Assembly: GCF_000003815.2 (NCBI RefSeq)
Contig: NC_049981.1
Location: 13,847,035-13,911,034 of the forward strand
DNA length: 64,000 bases
DNA from: Branchiostoma floridae
Taxonomy: Eukaryota; Chordata; Leptocardii; Amphioxiformes; Branchiostomatidae
Reading direction: 5' to 3'
Every line of letters begins with the position of its first letter. The first letter of the stretch is position 1. The notes under the pieces are model-generated. The model was not told the DNA's origin and ran no database searches. It saw only the letters and a program-made list of their open reading frames with translations. Positions 1 to 49,800 of this stretch are shown here, in pieces. A program made the translations under genes and the position numbers.

Positions 1-2000
1 ACTACCAGTACCTACCCTTCCCTGACGGCGCGTCGCCTTTCCAGGCAGCCGTGAACAACGGCGGGTAGGTTCCTATCCTCTTTATGTCTAGTATTCGCCA
101 CGATGTGACTATTTTATACCATTACGTTTCAAATTTTCATTTGTTTCACCATTTCAACTATCTTATTGCACTTTTTTCCAGGCGCTCTGTATACGTATGT
201 TGCGTGCTGTTGATACGTATACAAACTTTAAAGTAATCGGTAAAGTTTTGTAAGCTTGGCTTGTTTCTGTACTTCAGGTATCAAATGCATCGCAGTTTCA
301 ACTTCGAGGACGGGGCCGTGCTGACTGCCACCTACAACTACTCCTACAGCGGCGGCAAGATCCAGGGAGAGTTTCATGTAGGTCGATCTATATATGCTAA
401 CTACAAAATTTAGTACTCTGATCATGAAGTTCAACTGAGTCAATGCAATATACCTTTGTCACGCGCCAGTGAAATTAAACACAGTAAGGCGCTAGGCCTA
501 TGGTTCCAGTTCCCAACCCGGTACCCGGCGGGGTAGCTTTCCGAAACGAAAAATATGATAAGACAACATACAGAATTTAAACATACAGAATTTTAAAAAA
601 AGTCAGGAGCATGATTCCTTGGTAAACAATTTCATTACCGTTTCCGCAAACATCCCGGTCGGGCCCCGTTTCGGAAATGGGACCTAAGCCTAACATTATA
701 AGGGGGTGTAAGAAGGTGGGCAGATTTAGTTAACTCCTTCTTGGTACCTTGGATTGTCAAAAAACGTCATTTTGAAGTTGATCAAGTCACCATTGATGAT
801 AGATAGGTAGTTGACTTAGCGTTCTTGACAGACCTCAAACATCTACGGGTCAGGGTAGCGAGGCCTATGCAAAATCACCAAGAAGGAAATAATTGAATGT
901 CTCCACGTACACGTGTTTCAGCTGGTGGGCAGCGGTTTCCCCGACGATAGTCCGGTGATGACCAACGCGCTGACCGGTCTGGACAGGAGCGTGTCCAAGC
1001 TGATGTGCACGTCCGATGACAAGCTCGTCGAGTCCGTGCACTGGAGCTACCGGTAAGAGATGAAATGACTTGTTCTCTTGTACAATCTAATCTAATCAAC
1101 CAACCCGTTTTTATGGGGGTATAACAAAATCAAAAAGAAAAGGAAAAAAAACTACACAAGAGGGACAAGACGTTTTTTTTTTTTCAAATACATACGATGA
1201 TTGTATTTCTTGCGTTCAGTCTCCAATGTTTGAGACAAAGCTTGAACAATCCGGCAATGTTATGTAATCTCAAAAATGAGAACGTTTGTGGTAATAATCA
1301 CATTTCTTGTTTGTTTCATTTGAAGGTATATGACAGTCAATGAGTTCCTGAAATAAATTGCGTTCGTGAAAGTTGGCGAGTTTTTCATGTTCCTGGTCTA
1401 GTCTAGACTACGAATAGTTCAGTTCATTGAGAGTTCACTTCTACCTGAATATATGTGTATGACTGAATGGTAATTTGTAACTCATGAAAATCACAGGAAT
1501 GCGTTTCAAGCAAGGATGGGATGTAATTCAAACGTTTTTCCTGATTGCAGTGGCTTAAGTATGTCAAAGGGGTGTCTGTGTGGCGCAACGGCTAGAGCGT
1601 TGGAATCAGAATCAGTAGGTCCTGAGTTCGATACTCGCCATGCCCCTTCCCCCATGACGGTGGAGTGACGCCCGCCGAGCCTCGCGGCTAATCTGTCTAA
1701 AGGTGCTAAAAAACACCTGCGGATTTGGTGCTGCCAGTGTGTCAACATCTGCACACTTGCCACTAAGACCCGTGATTTTTTTAGCGGCTTAAGGGTGTTT
1801 TGTTTTACTCCGTTTGTAGCACCAGCAGCGGCGGGCGCTACCGTGCCACGGTGCAGACCAACTTCACCTTCGCAAAGCCCATCGAAGCTGGCCTGAAGAA
1901 CAACATGCCGATGTTCGTGTTCCGTCAGCTGGAAGTCACCGGCTCCAAAACCGAGATCGGCCTTCAGGAGCAGCAAAAGGCGTTCTCCACCGTTCTGTGA
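1..2000 (+). CDS. GFP-like fluorescent protein, 3' part (partial)
   Basis: Exons read as 1..64, 278..377, 922..1052 and 1820..2000, all with GT/AG borders and continuous frame, giving the last 157 residues. The protein reads YQYLPFPDG...FQAAVNNGG, then YQMHRSFNFEDGAVL, KIQGEFHLVGSGFPDD and MPMFVFRQLEVTG, which I recognise as the amphioxus GFP family (usual length about 219 residues). The family forms an 11-strand beta-barrel around an autocatalytic X-Tyr-Gly chromophore. The chromophore tripeptide lies just upstream of the window edge, so colour and functionality cannot be judged. No stop, frameshift or damaged splice site is seen in the visible part. The last intron carries a SINE, and two polyadenylation signals follow the stop. 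Amphioxus genomes carry many GFP paralogues; which one this is cannot be settled from this fragment. Confidence 0.95.
1570..1790 (+). repeat. tRNA-derived SINE in last intron of the GFP-like gene
   Basis: A tRNA-like head has an A box (TGGCGCAACGGCTAGAGC, about 1581-1598) and a B box (GAGTTCGATACTC, about 1624-1636) spaced as in RNA polymerase III promoters. It cannot fold into a normal tRNA: the anticodon region is irregular and the acceptor stem poor. A GC-rich body of about 150 bp follows and ends near a T-run at 1776-1782. The same strand as the host gene is used. The exact ends are uncertain because no target-site duplication was established. Confidence 0.65.
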
Positions 2001-2212
2001 GCGGCTAGAATGCATTTCTACCATAACGTTACACCCTCCGACAAATTACCTTGTATTCTCTGATGATGCCAGTTTGTATCCACCACTTTTGATTCAGACT
2101 CTCTACCTGGGAGTCAAAAACTTGAAACTATTCATTGAATCCAACACATTTTGCCATTCTAGGATGCGTTTATGGTTGAAATGTAAAAGAGTTGAAATAC
2201 TTTGAGCTTTTA

Positions 2213-2243
2213 AATAAAGGTTCTTGGTACTCTTACAAATAAA
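2213..2243 (+). terminator. Polyadenylation signals of the GFP-like gene
   Basis: Two AATAAA hexamers (2213-2218 and 2238-2243) lie 213 and 238 bp after the TGA stop, a usual distance for a short 3' UTR. Confidence 0.6.
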
Positions 2244-2689
2244 TCTCTGTCTCTGTTTTTTTTAACCTACAAATAGAATAACATGCAAACGTTCAACATG
2301 AAAAATGATAGATACATTTCCTTGAGCGAGTCTCCTGAAAAAAGTTAGTCTCTCGGACAGAAACTCTAAATTAGATAGCTAGTATTTCGACACAAGGTAC
2401 ATGTACATAAGACGCCATTTTTAATCTTAGTCTTATCAGACACCTGACGAACTAGGTTACAGGATCCCAGATGTTCAGACAGTACTAGTGAAGAGAGTTA
2501 ACGGCAGAAAGGTTCAAGAACCACTAGATCACTAGAACAGTCTTTCAGTTTTGGATGACCAGTTAACGTTTTATGTTGGCCACTCACCTACCTAGATCCT
2601 CACGCTGATATTCATTATAAAATCGGCCCGTGTATTACTGTGTAAAGAGATGTGAGAAAAAGCTTGCGGCGACACAATTAATGAGGAAT

Positions 2690-4410
2690 TACTATGGCAA
2701 CAATGGCGTCAGTATTAATGGCCTGTCTGATCTCCTGACACCGAAGACAAAGAAACATTACTGTCCCTCTGTCCAACATTACTGTCCTATAACGTTATAC
2801 CTAGTACCTAGTCAACAGTCTTCTGGTCACTGACCTAGATTTGACACATTTGGTTTTCATGCCTGAGAGATTGCTATACGGGATAGAAACAAGAAAAGGA
2901 CGGGAAAAGATTTGAAACAACAAAATGTGGATTTTCTTCGCCCTTAAAATAACTATACAATCTTTTCCTGATGTTGAAGGTCTTGATTATGATAAACAGT
3001 TTGCATCCATCGTGAATTTCTCTTCAGTAAAAGTAAAATAAAGTAGGACAGGTGCCTTGTACAGTTACGGGAGTCGTAAAATAGACCCCTCCCCCTGTCC
3101 CTGAGGACTAAACATGTCCAGACTTCATGTCCCGACTCCATGTCTACGTACTTTAGGTCAATACTTTGTAACGCTCTAAAAAGAGAGAGAACGCATTGTA
3201 ACAAACTAAAACCTTAAGTTGTATATCACAATATGTCAATACGCTATATCCTTGTAGTCATGGACCTCAGAGTTAGACAAGTATCATTGTATTCATTGAT
3301 GTATCCTTTTTGCCTTACATGCGTACCATGTACAAATGTCATGCAATTAAGTTCATTCTGTAAGAGAGACGGTCTTGCTTCGGTTAAGCACAATGAACGG
3401 CCACATGCTGAAGTGTAGCAGTGTTTGATCGCTGTTTGTAAATAAATATTCAGATTGTTTCTAGACCTGAACAAATTCTATATTCATTATACTGCCCAGA
3501 AAGAAATTTTGCTTTTAAACCCGTGAAGACAGCCTGGAGAAATTCAGCCACGCGGAATGACGTCAAGGCAAGCATGTTTGTTAAGATAATGACAATAATT
3601 ACAGGGTTGGATAAAGTACATAATGAGTGTTGTCATGTTCTTACAATGTATCGATTCACTTGACGCCATGTATGCTCAGGGGGCGTGGCTTTTAGCTGGA
3701 GGTGGAGAAAAATTAATGGCGACGCACTATGCTCAAGGATAAATCACTTTGACAACAATGGCGTTAGTATTATCTGTATGATCGTCTGTATGATCTCCTG
3801 ACACCGAAGACAAAGAAACCAGTACATGCATACAGTGTAATCACAAGGTAACGTCTCGTGACTCTCATAATTGTCCCTTTATCCAACATTACCGCCCTAT
3901 ATACCTAGTACCTAGTCAACAGCCTTGTGGTCACCGACCTACATTTGACACCGACCTAGTACCTAGTCAACAGCCTTTTGGTCACCGACCTACATTTGAC
4001 CAAGGACGTTATATAACGCCCTTGATTTGACACATTTGATTTGCATGCCCGGGAAATTACTACTAGATCAGAGAAAGACGGTGAAAAGATTTGCAACAAC
4101 AAATTTTGAATTTTCTTCGCCCGTTAATTTTTTTTTGTTGGCCTCTCCTAAAAGAAATTATCTTTTCCTGATGTTAAAAGTTTTTATTATGATAAGATAA
4201 TTTTGCATCTATCATAAATTTCTTCTCAGTTGATGTAAAATAAAGTAGGACAGGTGCCTTGTACAGTTACGGGAGTCGTAAAATAGCCCCCCTCCCCCTG
4301 AGGACTAAAACGGATCTGTCAGAGATTGTCAGCTCCGTACAACAATGCACGGCCACATGTTGAACAGTAGCAGCGTTTGATCGCTGTTGAAATTATAGAC
4401 CTGAAAATTC
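2690..4410. repeat. Diverged direct duplication (about 2690-3480 and 3750-4410)
   Basis: No gene is seen between 2244 and 4697. Two blocks share collinear strings: CTGACACCGAAGACAAAGAAAC (shortened here), the CCTAGTCAACAGnCTT motif, TCTTTTCCTGATGTT, a stretch beginning GTAAAATAAAGTAGGACAGG and continuing through GGGAGTCGTAAAATAG, and a motif around CGGCCACATG...TAGCAG.GTTTGATCGCTG. Order and strand are conserved, so this is a tandem duplication with a unit of about 1.1 kb and later indels. The longest open frames in it are not conserved between the two copies, so it is probably noncoding. Confidence 0.75.
3906..4003. repeat. Two-copy tandem repeat inside the right duplicate
   Basis: A unit of about 50 bp (GTACCTAGTCAACAGCCTT, then GGTCACCGACCTACATTTGA) occurs twice in immediate succession. 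The left duplicate near 2805-2850 has only one copy, so this expansion happened after the larger duplication. Confidence 0.7.
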
Positions 4411-22697: not shown

Positions 22698-23033
22698 AAG
22701 GTATCTCACCTGGTCTCAACTAGTCAAAGAAAACACATATATCTCACCTGTAAGGTACTTTACCTGGTCTCACCTGGACCTCAGTCAAAGAAACCATACA
22801 TATCTCACCTGTAAGGTACGTTACCTGGTCTCACCTGGACCTCAGTCAAAGAAACCATACATATTTCACCTGTAAGGTACGTTACCTGATCTCACCTGGA
22901 CCTCAGTCAAAGAAACCATACATATTTCACCTGTAAGGTACGTTACCTGGTCTCACCTGGACCTCAGTCAAAGAAACCATACATATTTCACCTGTAAGGT
23001 ACTTTACCTGGTCTCACCTGGACCTCAGTCAAA
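22698..23033. repeat. 61-bp minisatellite, about 5.5 copies
   Basis: The unit runs CTCACCTGTAAGGTAC, GTTACCTGGTCTCACCTGG, ACCTCAGTCAAAGAAACCAT and repeats exactly every 61 bp, with one to a few substitutions per copy. The last copy is cut after CAGTCAAAG, exactly where the next repeat begins. Confidence 0.9.
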
Positions 23034-23264
23034 GAGCCAGAACCTGTGTGTCCAATGTCCACGGGAGAGCCAGAACCTGTGTGTCAAGAGTCCATGGGAG
23101 AGCCAGAACCTGTGTGTCCAGAGACCACGGGAGAGCCAGAACCTGTGTGTCAAGAGACCACGGGAGAGCCAGAACCTGTGAGTCAAGAGTCCATGAGAGA
23201 GCCAGAACCTGTGTGTCCAGAGTCCACGCAAGAGCCAGAACCTGCATGTCCAGAGACCACGGCA
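23034..23264 (+). repeat. 33-bp coding minisatellite (seven 11-residue units)
   Basis: Seven contiguous 33-bp units encode EPEPVCPETTG-type repeats at the N-terminus of the MULE/SWIM ORF. As 33 is a multiple of three, every frame stays open, so frame alone does not prove that the repeat is translated. Confidence 0.9.
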
Positions 23265-25742
23265 GAGTCCAAAGGTCCAAAATTCAACTTGTTCCATCAA
23301 ATTGGAGTATCGTCATGTCAAAATCAAAGTCCCCTAAAACGCAAAAGAAAAGTTACCAAGAATGACTACCAGGTGTATGAAATAGAGCGTGATACCACTG
23401 ATGAACACATAGCTACTCTGGCTGCCAAGTTCAGCTGCCAGATGGTTTTCATCAGAGCCAAGCGTAAGGTTACCTTCAGGCGAGCAAATGGCATGCTCTG
23501 TCGTGGCACGGTCAGGGAGTACGCATGTCACAGACATGGAGCTCCGTCACGCAAGCGTGGGAGCAAGCGCAACAGAAGAAGTAAAAAGGTTGGGTGCACT
23601 TTTCACGTGAAAGTTATGGAGCCTGAAGACATGTCTATAAAGCTTGAGATACGTCTCCATAGTGTCCACGCTAACCATGTGCCTGGGTCAACAGAAGACA
23701 GCAAGTTCCTTCCAGTAGACAGTCGGGTACTGGACATTGCTCACGATTGCCTGGACGCTGGCCTACGCATTCAACAAACTGTGAACATTATACAAAATGT
23801 TGTTAGTTCTGGTAGCATTGGGGAAATTGACAAGAGCAGATACAGGGCAGTCATGACACGCAAAGAGCTAACAAGGCTACAGCACCAGCGAAGACGGAAG
23901 CATAGGCTCTCTGATGATGACTGGTTTAGTACTTACAGCAAGCTCAATGAGTACAAGTCCCAAGGAAAGTGCATCTACTTCCAGAAGTATGACCCAGACA
24001 ACGCCGATAGCGACAAACGGCCATTTGTCGCCGTCCTACAGACAGAATGGCAGAGGAGAATGGCAGAGCGCTTTACCCCGAACAGCGCTTGGAGCGTTGA
24101 CTCAACTTTCGGACTGAACTCATATGGTTTGCCACTGTTCACAGCCACAGTTCCCAATCAAAACAAAGAAGGAATTCCACTGTTCTTCCTCATCACATCG
24201 GCAGACAAGAACACAAACCAGGAGGAGACAGGGATCAAGGTTGGCTTCTCTGCAGTCTTTCAGAATGTGCAAGCACGACCAAACGCCATCCTTATAGACA
24301 AATCTCTTACAGAAAGACGAGGGATACAGGCCGCAGTGGACCAGGATGCTTTGTCGTGGGAACAATCCAAACAAACAAAGTGCAGGATAATCCTGTGCTG
24401 GTTCCACTGCAAAAAGGCGTGGACGGAAAACCTCCTGCCAAAGCTGCCAGCGGACGTGGCAGCAAAAGTGTATGACCAGCTCTGCACGATGATGTTTGCC
24501 AGCACATGGGAGAAGTATGAAGAAGAAAGTAAACGAATGGAGGATGAGTTTAACGACTACCCAGCAATCAAAAAGTACCTCCGTGGCTGGGACTCGGATG
24601 ACTGGCGACACATGTGGGTCAGGGCTGGGAGGATGTTCCCTCATGGAGACCAGAACACCACCAATCTGACGGAGAGAGAATGGATGACGATCAAATACAC
24701 CATTCTAACTGGACGCGCCAATCACCGTATAGATACGCTCCTAGATGCGCTGATTGGACACCCTAGGGACGAGAGGTATCAGGGTGGCCAGACCACAGTG
24801 GCCTTTCATGTAAAAAAGCAAGAGGAAGCCGACATGGGCTTCAACACGAAGTCATTGTCAAAAACAGAGCGCGGTCGCCAAGACATGGCAGATATGTACA
24901 TGGCTGCCTACAGGAAAGACCCTTCAGTGATAACAATGGTAAACCAGAACGTGCTGCTCTTCCATGTCAAGAGCACGAGTGTGGAGGGTGTATCACACAG
25001 TGTGAGCCTTACAGAACAGTTCTGTACATGTAGGGACAATGCCACAAATGGACAGACATGTAAGCACTTATTAACAGCAACCAAGTTCCTTCAGCAGTAC
25101 CACCCCAGTCTGATCAACAGCATCATGCCTCCAGAGATGTACAATACCAGTAGTACATTTGTTCCTACTTCAAATTCAAGTGAGCTGTCTGAAATGTCTG
25201 CTGTGCTAGCAGAGGACCACCTTGACACGACTCAAGAAGACTGCAGGGGCAAACTAATGGATGGTATCACAAAGTTAGAGTCTGTTTTAACTGGAATGAA
25301 GGAAAACACAGCACAGATGACCGAATACCAATGTCAGCAGGCATCCACAGTTGTAAACCAATGCCTCCAGCAACTACCAATGACAGCAACACTTCAAAAG
25401 CCACAGACGAAAGACGAACGGGTAACAGCAGCTCGACTAGTCAAGTCTATACAGCAGAGCAACATGGCAGCTAGAAGAAGAAAGGCCAGGGCAAGTACAC
25501 CTGCAAGTGCTGCTGCCTCAGCGGACAATATGACAGGTCCTACTGCAACATCATCAAGACGCATGAAAGTAAAACAGGTGCACAAACGTGTAAGGCTTCC
25601 AGGCAAGAATGCATCGTATAAGAGAGTGCGCTGTGACAACTGTGACACAAACACTTTTGTAGGCGTCACCAAGAAGGGGAAAATAGTCAAGGGTAGTACA
25701 ACCTGCAAAAACTGTGACACCTCAATATCTTATGTAGCTTAG
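23055..25742 (+). CDS. MULE-type transposase/SWIM zinc-finger protein (ZSWIM3-like)
   Basis: A single open frame of 895 residues from the first ATG; the frame is open back to 22998, so an upstream exon could be joined at the AG near 23028. Order of parts: 11-residue EPEPVC repeats (to about 75); a FAR1/WRKY-like Cys/His region (CRGTVREYACHRHG...GCTFHVKV); a MULE transposase core with VDSTFG (Asp349), LIDKS (Asp415), CWFHCKKAW (Cys448, His451) and NLTEREW (Glu540/542); a SWIM finger FCTCRD...CKHLL (from about 656); and a C-terminal CxxC...CxxC zinc ribbon (CDNCDTN, CKNCDT). DDE-type catalytic acidic residues therefore appear retained. No terminal inverted repeats were found near it, which together with an intact frame favours a domesticated gene, but a recently active transposon is not excluded. 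Animal relatives are annotated as ZSWIM1/3-like. Confidence 0.85.
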   Translation: MSTGEPEPVCQESMGEPEPVCPETTGEPEPVCQETTGEPEPVSQESMREPEPVCPESTQEPEPACPETTAESKGPKFNLFHQIGVSSCQNQSPLKRKRKVTKNDYQVYEIERDTTDEHIATLAAKFSCQMVFIRAKRKVTFRRANGMLCRGTVREYACHRHGAPSRKRGSKRNRRSKKVGCTFHVKVMEPEDMSIKLEIRLHSVHANHVPGSTEDSKFLPVDSRVLDIAHDCLDAGLRIQQTVNIIQNVVSSGSIGEIDKSRYRAVMTRKELTRLQHQRRRKHRLSDDDWFSTYSKLNEYKSQGKCIYFQKYDPDNADSDKRPFVAVLQTEWQRRMAERFTPNSAWSVDSTFGLNSYGLPLFTATVPNQNKEGIPLFFLITSADKNTNQEETGIKVGFSAVFQNVQARPNAILIDKSLTERRGIQAAVDQDALSWEQSKQTKCRIILCWFHCKKAWTENLLPKLPADVAAKVYDQLCTMMFASTWEKYEEESKRMEDEFNDYPAIKKYLRGWDSDDWRHMWVRAGRMFPHGDQNTTNLTEREWMTIKYTILTGRANHRIDTLLDALIGHPRDERYQGGQTTVAFHVKKQEEADMGFNTKSLSKTERGRQDMADMYMAAYRKDPSVITMVNQNVLLFHVKSTSVEGVSHSVSLTEQFCTCRDNATNGQTCKHLLTATKFLQQYHPSLINSIMPPEMYNTSSTFVPTSNSSELSEMSAVLAEDHLDTTQEDCRGKLMDGITKLESVLTGMKENTAQMTEYQCQQASTVVNQCLQQLPMTATLQKPQTKDERVTAARLVKSIQQSNMAARRRKARASTPASAAASADNMTGPTATSSRRMKVKQVHKRVRLPGKNASYKRVRCDNCDTNTFVGVTKKGKIVKGSTTCKNCDTSISYVA

Positions 25743-27618
25743 ATATACTTAGTCTGATGTCTTAAAGAGCTTGGTCACAGAAGATGTTAATTTTTCTGTG
25801 CTGGTTTTGTTACAAACATTGTACTTGTACTTATTAAACTGTATTAGCCAGGCCTCCATTGATGTGGCTGCCAGTAACATGCTACATTTGATAATTAATG
25901 TTATCTGGATTTGTACTGGTATTATCTGGTCTATGTATATTATTTTGTTATGTAAATTCTGTCATTAAGAATCATTCTATGTACTAGCTGCATCATAAGC
26001 AAGTTCTTTGGTACAGATAGAGTGCATGCCAAACCCTCCTGTTTACAGGAGACAATTTTAGTTTTGTGAAAGAAGTTGTTATATCTTACTACTATCAAGA
26101 TTCAACTTCATAATGCACCGCCTTCCTGCTTGGTGTGATATAGATTTAAGGTTTAGGAGAGGGCTCACAACGCCTACCTGTAAAACTCGATGCAGGCTCC
26201 TGTACATGTATCACTTTGAAGTTCTGTCTTTAATCATGACAGTTGAGTGAGAGATACTAGTACCTTCTTTAGGCATGGACAACCTGATTGTGTTATTATT
26301 ATACTTCAGTCAACATCATGTCCACTTTTAAGTAGAATAGTGGTTCAGACATGCTTGAAGGGCCAAGATATTGGTGATGTTGCCCGTTGTTAAAAATGTA
26401 TTTCTTATATTAGCTCAATCCCTGCCAAACGTTTAATGATCTGTGGCCACTGGGACACCTTTACTTTCGAGCCCGCTTACCAGAAAGAAATGTCATTACT
26501 TCTACAATCAGCATCCAGCTGCATCAATTGAACTATACCTGTAGACTAGAGCATGTTTTGAAATACAAATTATAGTCTAGTGAAATATTGACATAATTGT
26601 TGTTCAATCTTACAACTTGTTTTGATCCATCATTGGTAAACTGCATTTCACTGATTTGTTATGGTAAACTCTTGAACCCTAATTGCAAATTGGATACAAC
26701 TTCTGTGTGCCTAATGTTCTAGTATACATGTACTAGTATGTATACTGATGTTAATTAACTGACTTGTTGTCAACAACCAATGGTCTTCTCTATGTAAAGT
26801 ACAACTATTTTCATATTGCTTCAAGGTGTTTGGATTCACTTATTAGTTGACTATCACTTTAAATGGCAGTACCAGTAGCTCCTACAAAAACTTCGAACAT
26901 TATGACATAAGGGATGAAAATACAGTTTCAGATTATTTGGAGGATATGATTGATGCAATGTGTTCAGGTAACTAATTTTATCACTTCAAGAGTTTATGGT
27001 AGATCTACTGTGTTGCAATACTTGCCATAATGTTACAATAAAAGGCCTGACCATGGATCATGATTATTTTTCCTTCAGTTGTGCATTTGTGAAAACTGTT
27101 CTCAAGTACTAGTAAACTTAGCCCCTTTATAGCCTTAGCTACATGAAAGACATGTACCCATTTGTTAGTAGAAATATGACAGTTAACATATTAACAAACC
27201 AGAATATTGCTGGGATAAATAATTCAATCACAAACTTGCCTTCTTGGAGACATCTAGTCACACTCCAGTTGGTGTGAAGCCCCAACGCCACGGCAAGGCA
27301 GTCTCCATTGTTGGGGAAATTTTGTGGTGAAATGACACCTTTTGCAATGTTGCATTAGTCAAGAACATTAGAGTTCCAGACTGATGGAACAGTGCATAAC
27401 CAATCAAAGAAAGGCAGTTTCTCAAAAACAGAACCTACCACCTATATAAAAAGCTCTACCTAGCCCCTATCATGTACAGATGCCCTAACTAGTCCCTATC
27501 ACCCATACATAGAGCTGTGTACTGGTATACGTAACGTTATAGACTGTACCAATACAGTACCAGTACAATCAATTAAGGAACAGGTCGAAAATAACCGAAC
27601 CCTGGCATACAAGTACTG
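25743..27618. other. Probable 3' UTR of the MULE/SWIM gene, then unannotated sequence
   Basis: AT-rich with no coding frame. The first clear AATAAA is at 27037. Beyond it, at about 27430-27510, degenerate CCTACCTAGTCCCTATCACC words appear that also occur to the right of the retroelement at 31.1-31.4 kb. Confidence 0.4.
27037..27042 (+). terminator. Candidate polyadenylation signal of the MULE/SWIM gene
   Basis: AATAAA 1.3 kb after the stop; the only strong hexamer noticed on this strand before the retroelement. Confidence 0.35.
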
Positions 27619-27712
27619 AATTACACCAACTCATGATCACTGAGAGACAGCTTGGTGCATGACATCTTTAATGCTAGTCCAGAGTCTGTACATTTCTGGA
27701 TGTCAAAGGCCA
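27619..27712 (-). repeat. Split direct repeat A1 (terminal)
   Basis: 94 bp from AATTACACCAACTC to TGTCAAAGGCCA; identical to A2. Its outer end marks the element/host junction, preceded by host CAAGTACTG. Confidence 0.85.
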
Positions 27713-28236
27713 TGGGCAAGACCCAGGCGTCAAGAGGATGCTTTAACACTACAATCGAGAACTGAGCTTGTAGGAATAACGTCGAAAGCATGCGTTAACA
27801 GGTGAACGAGTCAGGTAACACAATGTAACGAGGTAAGCAAACATAACTATAATAGGAGTCGAGTGGCCTAGTCGGTGGAACGAGTCGGGAGGCTAACTAG
27901 ATAAATACATTTGTGGAGAACGGGCATCTGCCAAGTGCTTGAGAGCTTAGTGTGAGCCTTTCTGCTCACGAATCTTATATAACTGCTAACCTAACTAATC
28001 TACGAACCTTGATAACTAAGCGAATGTTTGCTACTTCTAAACTAAAACTAACTGGTTATGAACCGAGTTAAAGTCGGTTGTCCTGTAATGCGATAATAGG
28101 AATCTGCTAGATAATGTGAGTTCTGTAACTGCTGGAAGACCGTTCAAGGAAGAGTGCTCTGACTCTGTTGAGCTGGGTGGTTGAGAGCGCGCATTGCAGA
28201 GTCTTCAGAAGAGTCGGTGTTGCCGGGGTGGACGGG
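27713..28236. other. Internal spacer of the split-repeat element
   Basis: 524 bp between A1 and B1 with no open frame or recognisable motif; present once only, so it is not part of an LTR. Confidence 0.6.
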
Positions 28237-28356
28237 GGATGTCTGACTTGACGGTGGCTCTCCTCAGCCCAGGCTGCTGTGATTGGCCAAGGAGAGTCAT
28301 GTGACCGTGCGTGGTGAAATTCCCCGCTACCTCGCCAGATGGCGCGGTACCCCCAT
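28237..28356 (-). repeat. Split direct repeat B1 (internal)
   Basis: 120 bp from GGATGTCTGACTTG to GGTACCCCCAT; identical to B2 and directly joined to A2. Confidence 0.85.
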
Positions 28357-28450
28357 AATTACACCAACTCATGATCACTGAGAGACAGCTTGGTGCATGA
28401 CATCTTTAATGCTAGTCCAGAGTCTGTACATTTCTGGATGTCAAAGGCCA
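28357..28450 (-). repeat. Split direct repeat A2 (internal)
   Basis: 94 bp identical to A1. The B1/A2 junction reproduces what would form if the two element ends were joined in a circle. Confidence 0.85.
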
Positions 28451-29181
28451 GGCCGAACAGAGTGAGGTGCGCCAAGAAGGAGATGAGAGTATGAGTTGGT
28501 GAGCAAGAGTTCTCTGTGGGTGGCAGGGAAAGTGGTCGTCCCGGTGATGTCGCAGCGTGGCTGGTACTGGGACAAGGCTGCCCTCCACACTGGTATCTTC
28601 AAGTTGGAACTGACGGGGAGACTTAGACCCTGGAAGTTGAGTGTCCTGGAGTCGTACACTAGCTCATGAAGTTCAATGGCAGAGCGAGGAGGAAGCGGTA
28701 GAGGCGAAGGCACATCAACAGTCGTGACGGTATTTTCTGACCGAACGTCCGCTGTGACGAGACCGACTGAACCAGCTGCAGAGAAGTGCGGGCCTGAGCA
28801 CGAACAGATGCCGGGAAGTCGTGTTGGCTGTATGCGCAGTCCGGTATGTGCGGGGCATGAATGCCGAGACTCCGCGGTGGCATTACTGGTGTGCTGCGGG
28901 TGGCGACCGACTGAAGATGCAGGGTGTGGTCTGTCTGGGGACGTTGCCAGCGTTGCCTTGCTGCGCTCCGTGGCCTCCCCGCTCTGCTGCACGTTCATGA
29001 CGGGTGTGACGGGCTCCTGACCTTGAGTCTCCATGAGAGTAGTGTGTTCTAGAAAAGGGCCAGTTCTAATGCTTAAGTCTGATTGGGAACATGATGTAAG
29101 GCTGGAATCATTGCCGAATTCTGATTGGGGACTAGAAGTAAAGCTAGAGTGATTGTCAAAGTGAAGAACGTCTGACTGCAT
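28441..29181 (-). CDS. Truncated second ORF (pre-RT stump) of the split-repeat element
   Basis: 246 residues from ATG at 29181. Most is Ser/Thr/Pro-rich and low in motifs. Near the end it reads NFQGLSLPVSSNLKIPVWRAALSQY, which resembles the segment that precedes the reverse transcriptase in DIRS/Ngaro-type polyproteins (pattern P-S-x-L-x-I-x-x-W-R-x-x-L). Soon after this the frame runs into unrelated sequence and stops inside repeat A2. The reading is that an internal deletion removed the whole RT-RNase H-recombinase region and left the N-terminal part. It follows ORF1 after about 45 bp in a different frame. Confidence 0.55.
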   Translation of the reverse strand: MQSDVLHFDNHSSFTSSPQSEFGNDSSLTSCSQSDLSIRTGPFLEHTTLMETQGQEPVTPVMNVQQSGEATERSKATLATSPDRPHPASSVGRHPQHTSNATAESRHSCPAHTGLRIQPTRLPGICSCSGPHFSAAGSVGLVTADVRSENTVTTVDVPSPLPLPPRSAIELHELVYDSRTLNFQGLSLPVSSNLKIPVWRAALSQYQPRCDITGTTTFPATHRELLLTNSYSHLLLGAPHSVRPGL

Positions 29182-29227
29182 CACCTAACTCAGCGTTCAA
29201 GTCTGTAGTAAACGACCCGTAAGCTAG

Positions 29228-30523
29228 TCATGCCCTCGCTGCCGCGTAGGCGTCGCGTTCAGCTTTGTCGGCGTAGGGGCAATCTTGAGGTGTGTGTTGC
29301 AGAGGAACATCGGGTCGAAACTTGTGGCAGTACTTGCACACGTGCTTCGCGTTGGTGCCAGACGGGCCAAGGTGGTCAGATGCATATGTGCACGTCCCCT
29401 GCTGGTAACCTGCACAGGGTGCCCCAGTGTTGTTCGCCTTGCCCTTTACCTTGACTGTGGGCGAGACGTCATCGTCGTCCGTCGGTCGGCGCAGGTAGTC
29501 ACGCTTAAGATCTCTCACCAGTGCTACTGTATGTGGGGAGTCGAGGTCCAGCAATGCGTGTTCTGCACGACGTAACATGGTGCGGTAGAAGTTTCGAATG
29601 CCCTTGAATGTGTAATGTGGAATGTCCAGCATTATGCCCTGCAGAATCTGGGCTCTGTTGTGGCTCTCACGCGGATCAGTGTCTTTACTGAGGATAATGG
29701 CCAGTTCGCCAGCCATGAACTGGTCCCATGTCAATTGGTCGTGTTCCAGCTTGGATGACGCCGAAAATACGTATTCATGGGGCCAACTGACCTCACGTTT
29801 CACTTTATCGTGAGATTTGCGAGACAACCCGCTACGAAGCCGTCGCTTACCTCGGTAAGTCTTGTCATCATCGTCCGACGGTGAAGAGTAGTCCCGCTGC
29901 CGCCTGGGTCTCCTGCTGTTATCGCCGTCGAGGTCCCAGCCGAACGTGTCGCCGGGCGGTGGCTGCCTCGGCTGAGCCCGGGCTCGCTCGGCTGACGTGA
30001 AAGGATCCTGGAGATAGTTCATGGAACGTATGTCTCGCAGGGACGGGTAGCCGCGGTTGTGCTTGTACTCGTCTGTATGCGCTGGACGCCTAGAGGGATT
30101 CTTCCGAGGAGCCCCCCTCCCATCGTGACCGAATTCTCGCGAGAAGGTGCGTGGGTCTGCGTCTCGCGAGAAGACGCGTGGGACTGACGTCATCCGCACG
30201 CGGGAGTTGCGAGGAACGTCGTCCTGACGTATGTCCCCGGTTTGGGGAGGGGGGCTGCGCTGAGTTTTCTTGGGTTTCGTTTGTTGGTCGTGCTCCCGGA
30301 GGCGTGCCTCGTTTAACTGGATCCTCTCAATACTCCTCGATACCTCAGCTAGTTGGTGGTCGATCTCGTCCTCCAGCTCGTCCATCGGCGTAGAGAGAGA
30401 ACTGACGACCGGTGAAGGACAATCCCGATGTGAAGCGTGGTCCGGCCATTCGTAGCGGTCATCGAGCTGGTAGTCGCCGAAGCGCACGGGAGGCCTTGTC
30501 TTCCTCTTACCGGCGCCTAGCAT
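29228..30523 (-). CDS. Gag-like ORF1 of the split-repeat element
   Basis: 431 residues, ATG-led, no internal stop. Features: basic start (MLGAGKRKTRPPVRFGDYQL), a heptad-like acidic helix at about 48-80 (MDELEDEIDHQLAEVSRSIE...), an Arg/Pro-rich middle, a conserved-looking globular part with WPHEYVFSASS and LTWDQFMAGELAIIL, and a C-terminal Cys/His cluster (CAGYQQGTC...HVCKYCHKF...HTPQDCPY) consistent with a zinc-binding nucleocapsid-like end. Gag proteins of this class package element RNA. It ends just before ORF2. Confidence 0.65.
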   Translation of the reverse strand: MLGAGKRKTRPPVRFGDYQLDDRYEWPDHASHRDCPSPVVSSLSTPMDELEDEIDHQLAEVSRSIERIQLNEARLREHDQQTKPKKTQRSPPPQTGDIRQDDVPRNSRVRMTSVPRVFSRDADPRTFSREFGHDGRGAPRKNPSRRPAHTDEYKHNRGYPSLRDIRSMNYLQDPFTSAERARAQPRQPPPGDTFGWDLDGDNSRRPRRQRDYSSPSDDDDKTYRGKRRLRSGLSRKSHDKVKREVSWPHEYVFSASSKLEHDQLTWDQFMAGELAIILSKDTDPRESHNRAQILQGIMLDIPHYTFKGIRNFYRTMLRRAEHALLDLDSPHTVALVRDLKRDYLRRPTDDDDVSPTVKVKGKANNTGAPCAGYQQGTCTYASDHLGPSGTNAKHVCKYCHKFRPDVPLQHTPQDCPYADKAERDAYAAARA

Positions 30524-30626
30524 CGTGAAGGTTGGACTTAGGGGCTTAACGTACTGGGAACCGGGTGTATGAGGTTACCCCCGCCGAAAAAACGAAAGAA
30601 AACCCGGAAAATGCCGGCAGTGACTA

Positions 30627-30746
30627 GGATGTCTGACTTGACGGTGGCTCTCCTCAGCCCAGGCTGCTGTGATTGGCCAAGGAGAGTCATGTGACCGTGC
30701 GTGGTGAAATTCCCCGCTACCTCGCCAGATGGCGCGGTACCCCCAT
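30627..30746 (-). repeat. Split direct repeat B2 (terminal)
   Basis: 120 bp identical to B1; its outer end (TACCCCCAT) marks the other host junction, followed by host TACCTACAAC. Confidence 0.85.
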
Positions 30747-31119
30747 TACCTACAACACATGTATACACAGAAGGACTGCTTGTCTATTACTTAGCCAACA
30801 CGAAGGAACTGACAGAAGTTTTCACATTTTGTAAACATGCTAGCATTCAGGAAGAAAATGCAATCAAATTTTCTTGTTGGCAACATGTGGATGATTTTTG
30901 GCTTTGTTTCCATAAACTACTACTACTAGTAATCCCTACTGGTGGTATTGGTGGTGGGGAATTATAGATCCTACAATTAAACACGCTTAGGTATCAGTTC
31001 GAACATGCATTTGGTGTGATCAAAGATCAATCATTATTTGAACAAGAAAGTCAGGTCTGGACCTGTACCTAAACCCGTGTACCTCTACCTAGAATTTGTT
31101 TAGTTAGACAACTTACACA

Positions 31120-31410
31120 GCTCCATCCATAAAGTCCCCTTATATATAAACCCTCTCCCTATCCTATACACCCATAAAGTGCCCTACCTAGTCCCTATTA
31201 CCCATACAGTGCCCTACCTAGTTACTATCATCTGTAACTTAATTAGTTAACCAATAACTAATCCCAAAAATGAATTTTGAGCCCTCATGTCCTATTGCAA
31301 GGATGCCCTAACTGGTCCCAATAGTATGGATGCACTACATGGTCCCAATAGTATGGATGCCCTACCTGTTCCCTATCACATATGGATGCCCTACCTGGTC
31401 ATTATCACAT
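31120..31410. repeat. Degenerate CCTACCTAGTCCCTATC-type minisatellite
   Basis: Words such as GTGCCCTACCTAGTCCCTAT and GGATGCCCTACCTGGTCnnTATCAC recur every 25-35 bp. Related words at 27430-27510 lie left of the retroelement, so the element is flanked by the same repeat family. Confidence 0.6.
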
Positions 31411-31929
31411 GCACATCACTTGTTGTAGTCATGAAGTTTCCTTCCACCTTTTTTGACCTGGTGTTATCAAGTACTAGTAATCTGTATGTCTTGGAATGAA
31501 CTCACTGTAGATCTGTAAGTAATGTCAGAAACCATAAAGGCATAAATTAGACAATAAAGTAATAGTGATAGACACCACTAAATTAAATATATCAGAAAGC
31601 TGGCTTATCATGGTCAGCATTCCAATGTAGAAGGTGTTTGTAGCATCTGATCATTTCCAAAATCATATAGAGTTGCTGGAGTACCTGCATTTTTGGCGTA
31701 TAACTTGCAGCAGAGAGACCTGTACTAGTACTTAAGTTTCACTCGCCAACAAATGATATTTCTCAACAAGTATTCAACTTCTGACATGGTCATGCAGTGG
31801 ATAATTTATGATTTCTGGTGCTATTGATTTTAACAACAGTTACTCATTGACAAAACAAAACAGCACAATATAAACAAACAGGGATGATATGCTCTACTCT
31901 ATTCTACATTGTTTAACTCTACTCTACAT
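31411..31929. other. No gene seen
   Basis: AT-rich spacer between the minisatellite and the LINE relic. Confidence 0.4.
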
Positions 31930-32890
31930 TGTTTAATCTGTTTAATAAGTGATATAGTATCTGAATTTGATAACTTTTATCACAATTCTCCGGTTCTGTA
32001 CAACATGAAAGAACAATATTGTAAATCCTGGAAGCTGAAGGTTAACCTGAAAAAGTTATTGTATTTACAAAGGGAGGACAATTATGGAAAGATTGTTGTT
32101 TTTTGTTTGATAACAATGATTTAGAAACAGTAGCATCTTATTGTTAATCTTGTTGTTGTATCCTCAGCGGGCACATTCAAAGTCAACAGCAAATACTTAA
32201 CAGCAAGGGATTGAAAGCTTTATTTGGAATTAGACAATCATTAGACAAAGCAGACGCACCATTATCAGTTAAAAACAAACTCTTCAAGTGTGGTTACCCT
32301 TTAATTTGGCAAGCCCCTCAATCAAAAGATTCAAACATATCCCACTTAATTTCTGCAATTCACCAGCGTATGAAGGATATATATTTCCAGAATTTCCTAA
32401 CCAACATTCATAATGAAAATAAAGGTCTAAGTGCGAAAACCAAACTCCGAACGTACAGACTACTCAAGTCCTCATACAATGAAGAGCAGTATTTGAAAAT
32501 TACAAACAATCGGCTCAGAATTACCATTATTGCTAAAGTAAGAATCAGTTGCCACAAACTGCAAATTGAATCAGGAAGGCACAACCGTACTCCTCTATAA
32601 CAAAGAGTCTGCCAATTTTGTACTTCAAACATGGTAGAAGATGAAGTGCACTTCACTGTTGTATTTTTACACACGAGTTAGCACTGACAAGTTTATATTC
32701 CTCATGCATTTTGACAAACCGACCATAACTAAACCCACAGTCCTACATTTTCACCATTACCAAGAAGCGAGAAGCCAAACTTCTGTGTTAGACTAGGTCT
32801 GTGAAATTTTCACTTTGGGTACCTACTGGCTGCAAAATACACCCGATATCATTATTATAACATAATACAACCAATATTATTATTATTATC
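31930..32890 (+). pseudogene. Decayed non-LTR retrotransposon (LINE) 3' half
   Basis: Translated fragments match the end of a LINE reverse transcriptase: SDIVSEF...MKEQYCKSWKLKVNLKK (equivalent to the ADD...WKLKVN-KT segment), then after a break LKALFGIRQSLDKADAPLS, NKLFKCGYPL, and the post-RT segment ending KVRISCHKLQIESGRH with a zinc-knuckle-like CQFC...DEVHF. At least two frame breaks are present, and the 5' end is missing, as is usual for truncated LINE insertions. The 3' end is an ATT-type microsatellite (about 32850-32890). The 40 bp before it (from CACTTTG to ACACCCGATAT) also ends the SINE at 53.2 kb. Confidence 0.75.
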
Positions 32891-46879: not shown

Positions 46880-49800
46880 TCATTTTCTCTCCGGCCGTCG
46901 TAGGTGCACAGGTTCACAGCCAAACTTGACGTAAACGTTATCATCCTCTTGCTTTACTTCGTACGTTTGTTGCTGCAAAACAAAAGCATGAACCTTGAAG
47001 CATAGAGAAACTTAACACTGGCTAAGGCTTTATCCTCATTGAAAAAAAGAATAATGACCATAACGTGTTCAAAGCACAAGAAATCAAAACCGAAAGTCCT
47101 AGCTGCTGCAGGTGCATGGAAAGCCGCCAGGGGCCTCTAATCTAATTTATTCATTCTGCCCACAAACACCCACATACCAAATATTATAAACATCCGTACA
47201 CAACTTCTTGAGTTGTGCTGTTCGCGGACGAAATAAAATCCGAAAACGACCTTCTTGGCGAAGGGATAAAGGTAAGTCCCTTTTCTTAAATTAAACTTAA
47301 CCTGTAAAATAAAATAAAACGCTAAAATCTATCTGGAGATGCAGGGTATCGATCCCCGTACCTCTCGCATGCTAAGCGAGCGCTCTACCATCTGAGCTAC
47401 ATCCCCGGTCACGCATCATTCCCGAATAAACAAGTTGTTAGCAGTCTTTGAAATAGCTGAAGAGATGAAGAAATACCATATCGTTTGGACATAAGTTATA
47501 CAATATTATATTTTCTCATGATATAACAATTCATCCCAGATGTCTTAAACCATTCTGATGCTTGAAACACTTCCCTCGGTCTTGATGTCTCCTGCCACAT
47601 GTAAGACAATAATCTTGATGTCTATGTAATGAGATCACACGCGCAGCAACGTGAAATGGGAAACTAATACTACCCCGGCCCCAGCCAGGAAGGTGCCCTT
47701 TGACTACCAGTTAGTGAAATACATATTAAAGATGAAACTAGAATACGAAACCAAAGATCTCATGCGTCCGCAAATAGTTTTTGCGAATTTCTTAATTCCA
47801 TCTCTTGCCATAGTATTTAATATCATGCACAAGCTTCAAGTCCCATGTGCATTTGCCGTACCAACTATCCCAAATTAATTATAGGGCCATTAACACAGTT
47901 TTAGCAGAACGTAAGACTATAGAATGTAAGGCTTTGATATCGGCAAGACATAGCTGATGTGGTGCTGTAGTTCTTGAAAAATTTGATATTGGGATTCTTT
48001 TGTTCCTCCATAACTACCATCATGCCAAAAATTCATGAAAATCTATCAAAAAAATCTTGAGTCTCATCTGGTGCATATACAAAACAAAAGGAACCAAAAC
48101 AATACCGCCCGTTTGAAATACCAGTACCCCGGTGGCACCAGTCCTTCATTTCCTCAAAGACTAAATTAGAAAAACGAGAAAAAAGAAACGCCAACCGGGG
48201 TCAGCTGGTATCTGAAGGAAACCCGATTGCACGTCTTTCAAAACAAAAGACGTTCAAAAGCGAAGGTGTCCGTGAAATTAATGAAAACACCATTTATAAG
48301 AACCCAACAGTGCGTGGTTTGTCTCAGAAAGACCGAAACCTACACAATGTGCATCGTTAGCTACATGTATGTTATAGCAATGTTACTGGTTCTCCATCTA
48401 ACAAGTCGCTGTGTTGGGATAGACTCTGTTTCTGGGTCGGACATGAACGTTACAGACCAGGTCGATGATAAGCTCACTAATTCAACACTGTGGATCCGGA
48501 ATGGTTCGTCTGAAAACTGTACTTCTGCGACCAACAACGTTAACAACAGCTCCAGCTTAGGAGAGAATAGCACTTCAATCATCAACGTGCACGCATGTCT
48601 ACAGGAGGAGCCACTCTTCCCTCTTCAACAGTACGTCTCAACCGTGTCTTTATTCATAGTAGGCATCACTATATTTCTTGGTGTCTGGTCAGTCGTGGCA
48701 AACAGCCTCCCACTAGCAGCTATCATCAAGCACGAACAGCTTCACACTCCAGTCTACATCCTAGTGGCTAATCTGGCGGCTAGCGATGTCTTGGCCGGCA
48801 TAAGCTTCATCTTAGGCGGTAGCTCACAGGTGCACGTCGTAACAACGGAGACTGTTCCCTCTAACTTCATCTTACGTCTCCGCTTCTCGTCAATCTTACT
48901 GTCCGGGACATCCTCCGCATACAGCCTCATGGCGCTAACAGCTGAGCGCTACTGGTTCATCGTCCACGGGATGAGCTACGTCAGTAACGTCACCGACGGC
49001 AAGTGCAAGGTCACGATCGTAGTGCTGTGGGTGTGGTCACTGCTGCTGGCGATGCTGCCCAACTTCGACCAGCGATGCACTGACCGTTTTGACGACACGT
49101 GTATCCCGATAGGAGCGGGACTGTCCAAACAATACGTCATCGTTGCCGTCGTGTTTGTTTTCATCCCGATGGCGACGATCTTCCTCTTCAACCTGGGCAT
49201 CTTCTGGTGTCTGTGGAAGCACGTGAACGCCATCGCCGCGCAAGAAGCCGCTGTGGGCGCCCAGCCGAGCGTCAGCAGAAAATCCGCCATCACCATCGTC
49301 ATCATCACAGTCGTGTTCCTGGTGGGATGGATGCCATTCTTCGTCAAACTGGCTCAGCTTTCAACGGACATGGTTTCCGTGCAATACACGATGGTCCTCA
49401 TTATCGTCAACTCAGCAATCAACCCCGTGATCTACGGGTTTCGTCTGAAGGAGGTTAGGCGTGGTGTTGCAAGACTCTTCGTCAATTATTAGTAGCAGAG
49501 AGGACTTCTATATCTATTACGTTTATCTAGTCAAGACAAAGTACTGGTATGTAGGAAATGCGTGATAGTACAACTTGCGATGTCTCTCTATCTTTTATAC
49601 TAATTATATCAGGCAAGAGGCAGAATATTACCAAAGGGTTTATGTTGAGATTTTTTTGTACCATTTTGCTTTTACTGGTGTTCAATCTTCTGTTGTTAAA
49701 GAATTTGTGCCCCATAGACACCAATTTGTGTCATTAACTGTGTGAAAAAAGTTGATCTTCTTTTACTTGAGAGTTAATGAGATAACACGCATTTCTTTTA

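Follow-up and report, generated by a model that had tools for sequence, protein, structure and literature searches.

Ngaro-like retroelements are described, in the parts of the literature available to us, as carrying split repeats in the order A1-ORFs-B1A2-B2, where ORFs are open reading frames (PMC9210276, PMC8547959, PMC4157794), and the accessible portion of one report places an amphioxus element of this kind near VCBP2/5 (PMC2632668). Shortened forms have been documented as well, again according to partial texts. In Cafeteria, Ngaro type 2b is a multi-copy deletion derivative of a Ngaro, with ORF1 deleted and the enzymes kept (PMC8547959). SIRE, the short form of VIPER in Trypanosoma cruzi, is a truncated, non-autonomous split-repeat tyrosine-recombinase retroelement equal to the A2-B2 repeat region, and the excerpt at hand mentions no gag (PMC6681497). 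Gag-bearing, polymerase-less parasites are documented for plant long terminal repeat (LTR) elements: TR-GAG has one gag frame, no enzymes, a full-length relative and observed transposition, within a class that inserts by integrase (PMC8704663, as far as its available text goes). No gag-only tyrosine-recombinase element was among the papers listed by our searches of an open-access library; Repbase and most subscription papers lie outside that scope, and a consensus may already be deposited. TOC1 of Chlamydomonas is non-autonomous and PAT-like, a description that our literature search did not confirm. Here we analyse an element at positions 27619 to 30746 of a 64,000-nucleotide stretch of Branchiostoma floridae (assembly GCF_000003815.2, contig NC_049981.1, positions 13,847,035 to 13,911,034), the whole of which we call the window. 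An earlier note, made from the sequence alone, had read this element as a young split-repeat retroelement with gag but no polymerase.

Our analysis makes it probable that this is a non-autonomous Ngaro-type tyrosine-recombinase retroelement. One internal deletion would have taken the reverse transcriptase (RT), RNase H and recombinase out of a full-length ancestor, after which the short form would have spread as a lineage of its own, keeping split repeats and a working gag. Transcription would start from the outer 120-bp repeat and yield an RNA intermediate; Gag would be made by, and would package, its own RNA; RT and RNase H would be supplied by a full-length relative. A circular DNA intermediate, indirectly supported by the per-copy identity of both repeat pairs, would be closed on the template of a fused junction of 94-bp and 120-bp repeats, and insertion would be carried out by a relative's recombinase.

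Compared with the described systems, the element resembles Ngaro-like elements in its A1-ORFs-B1A2-B2 repeats, its gag, and a relative (the C17 copy below) in which RT/RNase H and a tyrosine recombinase precede the inner repeats, and differs in having a family that spreads without any RT, RNase H or recombinase of its own. Its loss is the opposite of that in Cafeteria type 2b; it carries a gag, which the excerpt on SIRE does not mention, and unlike TR-GAG, it has split repeats and would be inserted by a tyrosine recombinase. A single genome offers here a family of five copies, an empty site exact to the base, relatives of full length and, as an internal control, an apparently neutral stump beside a conserved gag. 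The family makes it testable which retroelement proteins serve their own RNA only and which are shared.

Layout of the element and its relatives

All coding features lie on the minus strand, as follows.

27619..30746, minus (coding) strand: whole short element, 3128 bp, with ends set by the empty site and by where similarity among copies stops
27619..27712, minus: outer 94-bp repeat (A1 of the earlier note, B2 on the coding strand), 94/94 identical to 28357-28450
27713..28236, minus: 524-bp spacer from inner to outer repeats, no coding frame recognised
28237..28356, minus: inner 120-bp repeat (B1 of the earlier note, A2 on the coding strand), 120/120 identical to 30627-30746
28357..28450, minus: inner 94-bp repeat (A2 of the earlier note, B1 on the coding strand), fused to the 120-bp repeat
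28451..28562, minus: tail lying between the inner repeat and the end of the ancestral recombinase frame, 88% over 112 bp to C17 just past its recombinase frame
28562/28563, strand not applicable: deletion junction, where C17 has 2,632 bp
28563..29184, minus: ORF2 stump, the N-terminal part of the RT/RNase H frame, 82% to C17 ORF2 residues 17-222
29231..30574, minus: gag ORF with a Cys/His motif close to its C-terminus, 448 codons from stop to stop, the first ATG being at 30523
30627..30746, minus: outer 120-bp repeat (B2 of the earlier note, A1 on the coding strand), 120/120 identical to 28237-28356
27319..27618, strand not applicable: left flank, part of another repeat that the insertion interrupts
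30747..31046, strand not applicable: right flank, where the interrupted repeat goes on

In coding-strand orientation the element reads [120]-gag-ORF2 stump-[94][120]-524 bp-[94], that is A1-ORFs-B1A2-B2, with zero bases between B1 and A2 (fusion at 28356/28357). The repeats reported earlier, 94/94 and 120/120, agree with ours to the base in order, coordinates and fusion, with the A and B names reversed relative to coding-strand usage. A 247-residue frame (28444-29184, minus strand) contains the ORF2 stump. That gag and an N-terminal polymerase stump are left, as had been proposed, is correct; that nothing else is left is not, since the final stretch of the 247-residue frame, 28444-28562, derives from the end of the deleted recombinase frame and from sequence past it. 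The G+C content is 0.54 in the element versus 0.41 and 0.37 in the 3-kb flanks, and the gag coding region holds a 27-bp tandem duplication (30135-30191). In database searches, gag matched no Pfam family at E 1 and the stump gave nothing useful in Pfam; the two together had one chance-level match in NCBIfam, gag had one chance-level match in the PDB, and gag, stump and gag C-terminus gave nothing useful in IMG/VR.

The missing enzymes are found in the C17 copy (L022), where related repeats surround 5774 bp with three open frames: a gag of 448 residues, an ORF2 of 734 and a frame of 338. ORF2 matches RVT_1 (E 2.3e-7) and RNase H (E 0.0032, below that model's cut-off). Taken alone, the 338-residue frame matched no Pfam family at E 0.1 (DUF2019 reached E 0.21, below cut-off) and nothing in the PDB, and ORF2 and this frame gave nothing useful against PHROGs. 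A profile of nine related frames from the same genome matches Cre recombinase (E 3.3e-11), and 7 of its 9 members match Phage_integrase. R160, K198, H280, R283, W306 and Y314 are invariant in the profile; we take them to be the catalytic residues of a tyrosine recombinase. The C17 recombinase frame ends before the inner repeats. No methyltransferase family was matched in C17 in Pfam at E 1, and there is little room for one: residue 655 of the 734 is the last in the RNase H match, and 78 bases separate the end of ORF2 from the opening of the recombinase frame. The bases that C17 has and the short copies lack, element 959-3590 (2,632 bp), begin at codon 222 of ORF2 and extend to where the recombinase frame ends; the deletion junction has one base of microhomology. 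The spacer is 95-99% identical to that of the window in the short copies C4, C9 and C5 and 80-81% in C17, C13 and C9:14.36M.

As to class, the element combines Ngaro-type split repeats and the lack of a target-site duplication with a relative that has no methyltransferase domain. C17 has RT, RNase H and, ahead of its inner repeats, a tyrosine recombinase, all of them gone from the window element, which is therefore a non-autonomous Ngaro derivative and not an autonomous Ngaro. Three other assignments were rejected. The PAT half of the PAT/Ngaro layout first proposed shares the split repeats and falls with the missing methyltransferase of the C17 relative, the Ngaro half standing on the coding-strand order. 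A DIRS1-like element is contradicted by the direct repeats and by the absence of inverted repeat pairs of at least 20 nt in 26500-32500, and an LTR retrotransposon, TR-GAG included, by the different repeats at the two ends and the lack of a target duplication.

Other relatives are less complete. C13 and C9:14.36M have extra sequence at the deletion point, and both contain runs of N; because their left flank is shared, they may be one duplicated insertion. The C9:23.02M copy keeps gag and part of the polymerase region and has lost its other side. In C17 (L022:3850-7401), gag and ORF2 share a reading frame, ORF2 coming after the gag stop codon; in the short copies an additional base lies between the two.

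Replication and clean insertion of the short form

Searches covered the element's own genome assembly (513 Mb, 431 contigs), and repeat counts are lower bounds. The 94-bp repeat occurs in at least 17 places, 14 of which form seven A1/A2 pairs in the earlier note's naming (C3, C4, C5, C9:21.50M, C17, C13 and C9:14.36M); the three others are two remnants with part of the spacer on C165 and a 74% match on C6. The 120-bp repeat occurs in at least 19 places. In 7/7 pairs the other repeat directly adjoins A2, so the fusion is more than chance. The outcome that had been named as fatal to the split-repeat reading, with all copies LTR-type or the A and B repeats independent in unrelated elements, was thus not observed. 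A chance arrangement of two overlapping or nested LTR-type elements might have been suggested by the two pairs of direct repeats and by a gag with no Pfam family, but the same arrangement and ends recur, also around RT and recombinase frames, and the four copies with both ends show no duplication; we regard it as close to impossible. The two C165 remnants (L025, L026) are separated by 42 kb, and both contain the 94-bp repeat and some of the spacer; because they have the same flanks, they are probably one duplicated remnant.

Five short copies on five chromosomes lack the same internal stretch, the further copies that the earlier note had called for: those of C3 (the window), C4 (3115 bp, 98.7%), C5, C9:21.50M (97.3%, one end lost) and C19 (element bases 892-3128, 94.9%, the other end lost). 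The junction bases, read at base level, are identical in the first four; for C19 the evidence is a continuous alignment across the deletion point. Both ends are present in the C5 copy, which is interrupted by about 8 kb of another element (L012:2551 to L029:6037) with a 5-bp duplication at its ends. The ends of this 8-kb element show inverted similarity, 78% over 85 bp.

Repeat identity is informative on how these copies arose. The 94-bp pair is identical within the copy in 7/7 copies, yet different between copies: at base 23, both members of the pair have T in C3 and C4, both have A in C9, and both have G in C5. The 120-bp pair is likewise identical in all four copies having both members (C3, C4, C5, and C17 over 119 repeating bases). 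The short form itself has therefore replicated. Identity within each copy would fit a renewal of both repeat pairs at each replication cycle, and duplication of one dead copy would not produce it; gene conversion inside each copy is a less simple source.

Loss of the polymerase region from one already integrated full-length insertion, which then never moved as a short form, would accord with a kind of decay common among transposons generally. It is refuted by the shared junction at separate sites on five chromosomes, by repeat pairs that match within copies and vary between them, and by an empty site without the whole unit; we rate it extremely improbable. Spread by segmental duplication or gene conversion, rather than transposition, is a mechanism for which this genome offers a precedent in the shared left flank of the full-length copies C13 and C9:14.36M. 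The left flanks of C3, C4, C5 and C9:21.50M, however, differ by eye, with identity beginning at the first base of the 94-bp repeat, and the empty site of the window copy is precise, which leaves this explanation exceedingly unlikely.

The empty site was obtained by joining the window flanks (300 + 300 bases), which match C11:2873603-2874202 as one 600/600 block, its perfection being read from 1083 bits versus 542 for each 300-base half. Nothing was therefore duplicated or lost on insertion, and the element ends are fixed to the base. The joined flanks also match C9:1322346-1322945 with about one difference, and the matching sequences on C17:6.20M and C158 likewise continue through the insertion point, with an extra stretch elsewhere. 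The earlier statement that there is no LTR pair and no target duplication is borne out by this site and by the different repeats at the two ends; the empty site then called for exists, though it lies in a paralogous copy of the repeat rather than in a second individual. By eye, no target duplication is visible in any of the four copies with both ends (C3, C4, C5, C17). A shared trinucleotide, reported at insertion for DIRS1-like elements in the available part of PMC3266345, was not seen: the two repeats abut without overlap, and the flanking bases differ between copies. A common target motif, looked for by eye in four sites, was not established. The window flanks themselves (27319-27618, 30747-31046) belong to another young repeat, with the 600/600 copy on C11 and a near-identical one on C9.

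With 0/214 repeat differences, divergence is at most 1.4% (95%), or about 1.2 million generations at 5.89e-9 per base per generation, and the 0/600 flank match corresponds arithmetically to about 0.4 million generations. The consulted portion of the source of this rate (PMC12862219) also gives a heterozygosity of 3.2-4.2% and an effective size of about 1.7 million; on these values, repeats as old as a random allele pair would show no difference with a chance of 1e-3 to 1e-4. From age and effective size, the insertion is predicted to be still polymorphic. Of the earlier proposal of a gag-bearing parasite that moves or moved very recently, the data support recent rather than present movement, and the helper would be an inferred one.

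Selection on gag and the ORF2 stump

Gag is open in C3, C4, C5 and C17, and so in three of the five short copies. Within the short copies, with changes polarised against full-length copies, gag has 37 synonymous and 29 nonsynonymous changes where 74% nonsynonymous are expected (P 2e-7), and the stump has 12 and 35 (P 0.66); the contrast is significant (Fisher P 0.0019). Gag is thus under purifying selection across the short copies, and the polymerase stump looks neutral. Counted from the ATG without an outgroup, gag gives 35 : 27 versus 12 : 35 for the stump (Fisher 0.0017), 30 : 25 without C5 and 17 : 9 in the three open copies; wrong-frame controls give 12 : 50 and 15 : 47. Private gag changes number 12 : 5 in the three open-gag copies and 12 : 16 in the two with a frameshift, and the comparison of the window with C4 alone gives 7 : 2. 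Because the deletion is shared, the gag changes postdate it, except where gag was brought back by recombination.

Purifying selection might also be expected had gag been co-opted for a host function. Several near-identical insertions with intact repeats, three of them with an open gag, point instead to selection at the level of the element and not of a locus, and we judge co-option very improbable.

Several observations weigh against the reading that a short-form lineage with its own working gag was spread by the enzymes of a full-length relative. Two of the five short copies, C9 and C19 (L021, L028; element position 1862), share a 7-bp deletion that shifts the gag frame. The tree places C9 weakly with C5 (55%) and not with C19; the deletion may have recurred at short repeats, been passed on by recombination, or travelled with a copy whose gag was broken, so that a copy without a working gag may also have moved. 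Selection on gag could, moreover, be due in part to recombination with full-length copies. The genome search found no full-length copy with near-identical repeats, C17 differing at 7/94 bases in one repeat and at 14/121 plus a gap in the other, and the partner sought by the earlier note is accordingly present with its three open frames between repeats that are related rather than the same. For this reason we infer, rather than identify, a full-length relative as enzyme donor; the element that served as helper may have died out, or this haplotype may lack it. Finally, similarity to C17 beside the fused junction (29/30 and 27/30) is not clearly special, since at a greater distance one side still has 27/30 and the other 19/30 in an ungapped comparison; it is plausible that the fused site of the window element would be accepted by a recombinase like that of C17.

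The shared frameshift would also suit a short form that is mobile and takes all proteins, Gag included, from full-length relatives, its own gag being a passenger conserved through youth or repeated recombination. Against this stand the neutral ratio of the stump in the very copies where gag is constrained, the three open gags, and a tree (fragment C13b left out) in which the full-length clade is separate from the short copies with support of 100. We consider a passenger gag unlikely.

A second gag-only family and other features of the window

A second family in the same genome, at C19:2275600-2278900 (L045; element L045:422-3294), has split repeats of its own, 112 bp identical and 101 bp at 97%. 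It carries an ORF2 stump with further small indels and an open gag of 318 residues, of which 207 align with the C17 gag at about 41% identity; the 3.3 kb read showed no RT or recombinase. On C1:6.88M (L046), gag is 98% identical to that of L045 and the junction region is the same (911 aligned positions, 98%); a C4 member has the repeat pair at 99-100% and a gag without a middle part. The 112-bp repeats are spaced 2025, 2015 and 1723 bases apart in the C19, C1 and C4 members. On C2, relatives of these repeats (81-82%) lie 4750 apart, with a 90% identical gag and with RT and recombinase matches between them. By a count made by eye on the translations, the left breaks of the two families are about 7 codons apart; the right break of this second family, located more coarsely than to a single base, lies beyond the recombinase match.

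Two families would then have separately lost RT, RNase H and recombinase at almost the same point and kept an open gag, selection on which was measured in the first family. It is conceivable, although we lean slightly against it, that gag-only Ngaro elements represent a recurrent life strategy. If so, Ngaro Gag would act mainly on the RNA encoding it, polymerase and recombinase would be shared, and the retained start of ORF2 would carry something needed in cis.

Elsewhere in the window, a 914-codon intronless frame (22998-25739, plus strand) with tandem repeats at its start has sub-threshold matches to MULE transposase and SWIM zinc finger models and is perhaps another transposon. A 440-codon frame at 48170-49489 (plus strand) matches the rhodopsin-type receptor family (7tm_1, E 2.1e-32).

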